Of a DNA stretch of 64,000 nt, positions 35,526 through 36,833 are shown in pieces. The stretch is from Brachyspira murdochii DSM 12563. GTDB taxonomy: Bacteria > Spirochaetota > Brachyspiria > Brachyspirales > Brachyspiraceae. How positions within the stretch are numbered: position 1 is the stretch's first letter; the number at the start of each line of letters is the position of its first letter. The stretch lies in contig NC_014150.1 of NCBI RefSeq assembly GCF_000092845.1, positions 372,001-436,000 on the forward strand, written 5' to 3'. A program made the translations under genes and the position numbers. The notes under the pieces were generated by a model. The model worked only from the letters and a program-made list of their open reading frames with translations, did no database searches and was not told the DNA's origin.

Positions 35526-36774
35526 TTATTCTATATAATTAGAATATTCATTAAGATAGCTTTCTGAATCCGTAATTATAATATTATTAAATAAATCAGT
35601 TTCAATATAATTTATGTTTTTAAGAAGTAAATATATTTCATTATTAGATATAGACAAGTTCAGCATATTTTTTATATCTTCATAAGAATATGATAATTTT
35701 ATTGTTTTATTATCATTAAATAATGTTTCTATTTTTAATATAGCAAATATTAAAACAATAATCTTTTCTTTCACATTTTTTTTATTTAAAGCCTTTATTT
35801 TTAATATTGTAGTTATAATTTTTATAGAATTCATTTTTATATAATCTAATCTTAAACTAATGTCTGTATATAATTTTTTTATAAAATCATTATATGTTAA
35901 TATTTCTATTACAGACTCTTCAAGCACTATTGCAGTTATAAATAATGGCTTATATTCCAATTTAGGATTTACAAAGTTTAAAATATGATTGCTTTTATAT
36001 ACAACTCCTGCTGTCTGCTTTGAATTAATTATATTATATATTCCAATTTTTCCAGATTTTATACAGTAGATATTGTTAATAATATCAAGTTCAGTGTACA
36101 AACAATAGCCTTTTGAAAATTTATATATATTTTTATCAACTTTTATAGGTTCATCAGCCGGTTTCAAATTCTTTAAGAACTCTATTACATTATCACAATT
36201 TTCACAATCTTTAAATGTATTTATATGAGAAATGCAAAGTTTATAGCAGGCATCTTCAAAGCCATTATTTTTATATATTTTAGCCATTAGTAATGTATCT
36301 TCTTTATTGTACAAATCTATTTTGTTATTAATTAAAATATTATAATATTTACTAAGCCACACCTCAAGAGTAAACAATAAATAACTTGATATTCTTTTTA
36401 TAATATTATGATTATCAATCTTGTTTATATTTTCTATTTTTATCTCTAAAAGCTCACAGTCTTCTACAGCTTCTATTAAAGAAAAATAAGGTTCATTTGT
36501 TACAGATGATATCAAACCTATAATATCGCCATTTTTACTAAAAAAATTAGAGTTTTTTATAAAATTATTATAAGATAATGTTTTACCTTTTATGATTAGA
36601 TAAAAATAATTTTTAGGTTTTTCGCCGCTTTGAAATATTATAGATAATTTAGGATATTTTACGAGTTTGTGTTTTGTGTTTTGTGTTTTGTGTTTTGTGT
36701 TTTGTGTTTTGTGTTTTGTGTTTTGTGTTTTGTGTTTTGTGTTTTGTGTTTTGTGTTTTGTGTTTTGTGTTCAT
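35526..36774 (-). pseudogene. CRP-like regulator with two cyclic-nucleotide-binding-type domains; heptanucleotide tract puts it out of frame (phase OFF)
   Basis: From ATG 36774 the codons run straight into 14 perfect 7-bp repeats. Beyond the tract, that frame meets TAA near 36649. The regulator frame itself is open from about 36770 down to 35526 but has no ATG of its own; TGA at 36773-36771 closes it upstream. Removing one repeat (or adding two) joins ATG to body and gives about 413 residues. The product would have a repeat-encoded His/Lys/Thr/Gln/Asn tail, a cNMP-type domain (LSIIFQSGEKPKNYFYLII, GDIIGLIS), a helical linker, a second cNMP-type domain (YCIKSGKIGIYNI) and a winged-helix end (YSYEDIKNMLNLSISNNEIYLLL). 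TTG 36515 could only start mid-domain. I read this as a switchable gene rather than decay. Confidence 0.8.
36665..36770. repeat. Heptanucleotide tandem repeat (GTTTTGT)14, contingency-type tract
   Basis: Fourteen perfect units run from 36671 to 36768, with one degenerate unit at 36665-36670 and a partial unit at the other end. On the coding (minus) strand the unit is ACAAAAC, which has no stop codon in any frame. Seven is not a multiple of three, so each gain or loss shifts the reading frame. The tract begins right after the ATG. Confidence 0.97.
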
Positions 36775-36805
36775 GCTAAAAACAATAATAATATGAATAT
36801 ACTTA

Positions 36806-36833
36806 ATTATATATTTTATTTCAATTATGTCAA
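36806..36833 (-). promoter_or_regulatory. Consensus sigma70 promoter of the phase-variable CRP-like gene
   Basis: TTGACA (36833-36828) and TATAAT (36811-36806) on the minus strand both match consensus perfectly, with a 16-bp spacer, between rnhA and the repeat tract. A start point near 36799 leaves a leader of about 25 nt. No good Shine-Dalgarno is visible before the ATG. Confidence 0.8.

Follow-up and report, generated by a model that had tools for sequence, protein, structure and literature searches.

In Brachyspira murdochii DSM 12563, a gene for a protein of the CRP/FNR fold is very likely phase variable (a contingency gene), with a heptanucleotide tract next to its start codon setting the reading frame of the protein. 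The gene was found on the minus strand of a 64,000-nucleotide stretch (contig NC_014150.1, positions 372,001 to 436,000), referred to here as the window; coordinates without a genome or locus label are positions in the window, and the complete genome consists of one contig, 3,241,804 bp long. Several features of the gene are those of known contingency genes: the 5' repeat is perfect, its unit is free of stop codons and has a length not divisible by three, there is no alternative start for the full product, and the repeat varies naturally between species. The parts of the locus are as follows.

36841..37332, minus strand: rnhA (ribonuclease H), the next gene upstream and the marker of the orthologous place in other genomes
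36806..36833, minus strand: sigma-70-type promoter, TTGACA-16-TATAAT, matching the consensus at 12/12 positions
36772..36774, minus strand: ATG start codon, abutting the repeat and conserved in all five orthologues
36666..36771, minus strand: heptanucleotide tract of AACACAA, 106 bp, 15.14 perfect copies
36649..36774, minus strand: present OFF-phase frame, 41 aa, consisting of (NTKHKTQ)n followed by TRKIS and a stop
35526..36662, minus strand: intact regulator body of 378 codons and a stop, which in B. murdochii is not in the frame of the ATG
34393..35433, minus strand: ABC-transporter permease (opp-like), the downstream neighbour

All elements of the original prediction were found at the locus, and its interpretation is supported. 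The promoter boxes (TTGACA at 36833-36828 and TATAAT at 36811-36806, with a 16-bp spacer) bear out the consensus promoter of the original prediction, and a score of 12/12 was reached in 0/200 shuffles of the same upstream stretch. The ATG at 36774 is followed directly by the perfect tract (36771-36666), as had been proposed, with the correction that the number of copies is 15.14 and not 14. A scan of the unit confirmed zero stops in any frame; each frame encodes the same seven-residue repeat, rotated. The repeat is not a product of chance, since in first-order Markov simulations of the window, 30 in all, the longest period-7 tract reached 18 bp, compared with the 106 bp observed. Nor is it a widespread genomic element: the B. 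murdochii genome has only one tract of the AACACAA unit, and related heptamer units sit at other specific loci. There is no Shine-Dalgarno motif before the ATG at 36774, and such a motif is present in only 33/117 of the family members whose start was scored.

An assembly artefact, named in the original prediction as a possible undoing of the idea, is unlikely because the finished genome of the type strain 56-150 rests on 19.7x Sanger and 48.9x 454 reads (PMC3035287) and the genomes of relatives were assembled independently. The same paper calls the strain non-pathogenic. A 106-bp tract fits within Sanger reads, so that the copy number may be slightly off, but the tract is not likely to be invented.

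In the sequenced genome the gene is OFF, because the frame that begins at the ATG closes after 41 residues. The distance from the ATG to the body leaves a remainder of 1 when divided by three, which agrees with the one-base offset described earlier. The body frame itself is open from the tract through the stop at 35526, and the predicted arithmetic was also correct: of the three phases one is open, for a product of 413 residues, which becomes 420 in the next longer phase.

In the mechanism we propose, the strong promoter would drive an mRNA in which the only usable start codon abuts the heptanucleotide tract. Slipped-strand mispairing would add or remove units, and since 7 bp cannot be divided into whole codons, every such step would put the body in a different reading frame. 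In one phase out of three, translation would yield the complete CRP/FNR-fold protein, made up of an N-terminal tail encoded by the repeat, two cNMP-type domains and a winged helix; in the other two phases, the only product would be a peptide of about 40 residues. We infer that polymerase slippage causes switching of this kind within a strain.

An alternative use of the same tract is as a rheostat, in which its length tunes expression via spacing, mRNA structure or the length of the tail, and not via reading frame. Similar tracts are present in short leader open reading frames at a paralogue operon and a glycosyltransferase locus, outside the genes themselves (see below), and the length of the tract in neuO of Escherichia coli has been reported to affect enzyme activity too (PMC13001214). 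At the window locus, however, the tract separates the body from its only start codon, which makes effects on the frame unavoidable, and the promoter, being upstream, is not altered by the tract; we regard the rheostat as unlikely.

The proposed frame switch can be compared across species. A search of 26 Brachyspira genomes (B. murdochii being G000) found an orthologue adjoining rnhA in G004, G005, G015 (Brachyspira sp. G79) and G024. In every orthologue, a 12/12 promoter and an ATG precede a heptamer tract, the unit of which is AACACAA in G000 and G015, ACACAAG in G004 and G005, and AACCACA in G024. Phases and copy counts were taken from the four readable orthologues, which form one fully supported group in the tree; G015 was left out on account of indels and a scaffold gap. 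The tract has 15.1 copies in G000, 19.6 in G004, 11.4 in G005 and 14.1 in G024, where the counts for G005 and G024 carry some risk as these are draft assemblies. Thus, the repeat number is not invariant, four species having four copy numbers and three unit sequences. The distance from ATG to body modulo 3 is 1 in G000, 2 in G004 and 0 in both G005 and G024, so that all three phases are represented: the gene is ON in G005 (406 aa) and G024 (407 aa) and OFF in G000 and G004. The tracts of G004 and G005 share the same unit and are followed by bodies that are 96.3% identical, yet they differ by 8 units and in phase. This copy-number variation was seen between species, and slow evolution could give such variation too. 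Across the orthologues, the repeat thus keeps its period and its position while its unit sequence and length turn over.

The same comparison bears on whether the protein could be made constitutively from an unrecognised start after the tract (TTG at 36515, or a rare ATT or ATA), the repeat then being a neutral expansion within a 5' end that is not needed. The TTG opens 329 aa in the body frame, and since the first domain begins right after the repeat, a start just downstream of it would lose little. The TTG is nevertheless the first and only ATG, GTG or TTG near the 5' end of the body frame; it falls inside the first cNMP-type domain and is replaced by TTA in the other three readable orthologues, so it was rejected as an alternative start, and with it a conserved downstream start of the kind that the original prediction had allowed for. 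In the ON genomes, the ATG before the tract is the sole in-frame ATG, GTG or TTG upstream of the body. All five species retain the promoter and the ATG directly at the tract, and one would not expect a repeat that expands neutrally to hold to a 7-bp period as its unit changes from lineage to lineage. We consider a constitutive product quite improbable.

Pairwise dN/dS values for the body are 0.16-0.33 among the orthologues, by which measure the body is under purifying selection; with these values and intact frames, the OFF copies are not long-dead pseudogenes. Gene decay in B. murdochii, with the OFF frame as a fixed loss instead of a phase of the switch, would fit the OFF state of this copy and the absence of the gene from most Brachyspira species (in G006 and G008, rnhA and opp are adjacent and the regulator gene is missing between them), but it is very hard to reconcile with a 378-codon body without stop or frameshift, a dN/dS of 0.32-0.33 against G004 and G005, and a sole out-of-frame feature that is a perfect, and therefore recently homogenised, tract.

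The product of the phase-variable gene was predicted to contain two cNMP domains and a winged-helix end, and Pfam, the family profile and a confident structural model agree on this architecture.

36417..36662, minus strand: first cNMP-type beta-barrel, body residues 1-82 (Pfam PF00027, E=1.4e-14)
35895..36146, minus strand: second cNMP-type domain, body residues ~173-256 (second PF00027 stretch, profile and model)
35532..35774, minus strand: C-terminal winged helix, body residues ~297-377 (AlphaFold model and FNR alignment)

The AlphaFold model of the body (pLDDT 89.9, pTM 0.91) has two barrels, a helical linker and the C-terminal winged helix, the last with helices at 327-333 and 340-348 plus wing strands. 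Body residues 1-82 align to the cNMP domains of PKA, HCN and CRP, and residues 177-378 to FNR (Z 14.6, 190 residues, 3.2 A). PF00027 was found in all 69 aligned family members; the profile of these 69 matches CooA and FNR, extending through the winged helix, and its matches in the second cNMP-type domain are to Bd1971, CooA and FNR. On the modelled structure, a cNMP-type beta-barrel and a winged helix after a long dimerisation helix, the protein is a member of the CRP/FNR superfamily. The C-terminal domain gave no Pfam HTH match, and so its putative DNA binding is read from the fold; if the regulator binds DNA, as we infer, the switch would extend to a whole regulon. Most paralogues have only about 6-8 residues ahead of the region aligned with the body. 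The repeat-encoded tail replaces those residues, and the repeat therefore spares the domains.

In CRP, an Arg-Ser pair (R82-S83 in the E. coli protein) holds the phosphate of cAMP. The same position is Tyr-Phe here (body Y59-F60), with Y59 nearly invariant in the family; the phosphate-binding Arg-Ser cassette that marks CRP proper is absent from the aligned residues. Because of this replacement, the protein probably does not bind cAMP as CRP does. The earlier description of the protein as CRP-like is thus apt for the fold, and does not extend to the residues of CRP that bind the cAMP phosphate.

The layout at this locus is repeated elsewhere in the genus. The list of tracts was built from pattern searches and is hence incomplete; of the 17 tracts examined, 13 combine a 12/12 promoter with an ATG lying no more than a few bases from the tract. 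From these sequences, 'promoter-ATG-heptamer' is a recurring Brachyspira cassette. Among 139 matches to the regulator family in the 26 genomes, a tract is present only in the rnhA-linked group and one other orthologue group. The latter includes a two-paralogue operon in B. murdochii (G000:C1:1431632-1433928), in which a compound tract, together with a promoter and an ATG, precedes the genes. This tract and that of the glycosyltransferase locus are located as follows.

G000:C1:1431381-1431608 (L161:2882-3109): compound tract of CGTTATC x12 then ~20 TATC, in a leader open reading frame; orthologues in L122 and L140
L098:1486-1600, around G000:C1:69753-69836: glycosyltransferase leader tract; also in L109, L067, L072, L073 and L075

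In the paralogue-operon leader (G000, G004 and G015), one frame of three terminates in the interval from -2 to +26 relative to the gene start and the other two 36-72 nt upstream of it; the leader of G004 is currently in the overlapping phase. G006 and G018 have the operon with a mere stub of the repeat. The frame ends suggest phase-variable translational coupling, with low to middling confidence because the gene behind the leader has a Shine-Dalgarno-like motif of its own. We are aware of no described system with such a mechanism. A CRISPR-like array with the repeat ATTTCTAATCTAACCATACTGGAATGTAAAT (L010:1-1110, approximately G000:C1:1430132-1431240) stops shortly upstream of the promoter of this operon.

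At the glycosyltransferase locus, the promoter-ATG-heptamer layout occurs in a leader open reading frame in at least 6 genomes. The units are GAACTCA or ACTCAAA, some 150-330 nt upstream of the gene in several species, and a comparison of frame lengths shows that one frame of three reads about 150-215 nt further. Tentatively, the two or more loci of the CRP-like family and the glycosyltransferase leader may flip independently, in which case a reusable cassette would make up a combinatorial switchboard with many regulatory states in a clonal population.

Other repeats were observed in passing. At G004:C1:2215257-2215312 (L097), GAACTCA x8 has a frame open into a lipoprotein-like gene downstream, with a nearby ATG in another frame. 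In G021:C209 (L045), two small open reading frames with heptamer repeats stand in succession before two methyltransferase-like genes. Some draft contigs end inside heptamer tracts (G014:C21 in L071, G021:C111 in L074, G022:C77 and G021:C191), which is to be expected should such tracts disrupt short-read assembly. Elsewhere in the window, at 61501-61721, a 104-bp unit is tandemly duplicated (2.1 copies, 96% alike) and holds an inverted-repeat-like stretch, AAAAATTGTGAGCGGACAG...AGCGAACAATTTTT.

If the regulator is switched at random, clonal cultures would be heterogeneous in a whole regulon, and this heterogeneity could confound comparisons of transcriptome and phenotype in Brachyspira. The presence of the cassette at a second locus of the regulator family and at a glycosyltransferase gives a testable handle on how these gut spirochaetes diversify. 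As a probable case of repeat-mediated phase variation, the locus draws its interest from the kind of protein that is switched and from the reuse of the cassette across the genus.

No paper on repeat-switched genes in Brachyspira was found in the literature searched, and to our knowledge phase variation has been little described in the genus. The mechanism is already known from E. coli neuO; the target and the reuse of the cassette are new to us. In the type III mod methyltransferase phasevarions of Haemophilus, Neisseria and Streptococcus suis, one repeat-switched gene alters the expression of many genes. These systems act through DNA methylation, whereas the Brachyspira gene encodes a putative DNA-binding regulator.

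The O-acetyltransferase gene neuO of the CUS-3 prophage in E. coli K1 has a tandem of the heptanucleotide AAGACTC in its 5' coding region and is translated in one phase of three only; copy numbers range from 3 to 53 among genomes and are mixed within one culture (PMC13001214). The position of the heptanucleotide tandem and the one translated phase are shared with the Brachyspira gene. The targets differ, a capsule-modifying enzyme in neuO and a CRP/FNR-fold protein here, and in Brachyspira the unit sequence differs between species. Slipped-strand mispairing also switches a transcription regulator in group A Streptococcus, mga (PMC10330708), where the tract is poly-C and far downstream in the gene instead of a 15-unit heptamer right after the start codon. 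In Campylobacter jejuni, the flgR/flgS regulatory system is frameshift-switched via repeat tracts (PMC8355987); this is a two-component system with short poly-A/T tracts, described there as not truly reversible. As for the protein, it resembles CRP, FNR, CooA, NtcA and CprK in having a cNMP-type barrel, a long helix and a winged helix, and departs from the superfamily in lacking the CRP-type phosphate-binding Arg-Ser and in having two barrels joined by a helical linker.
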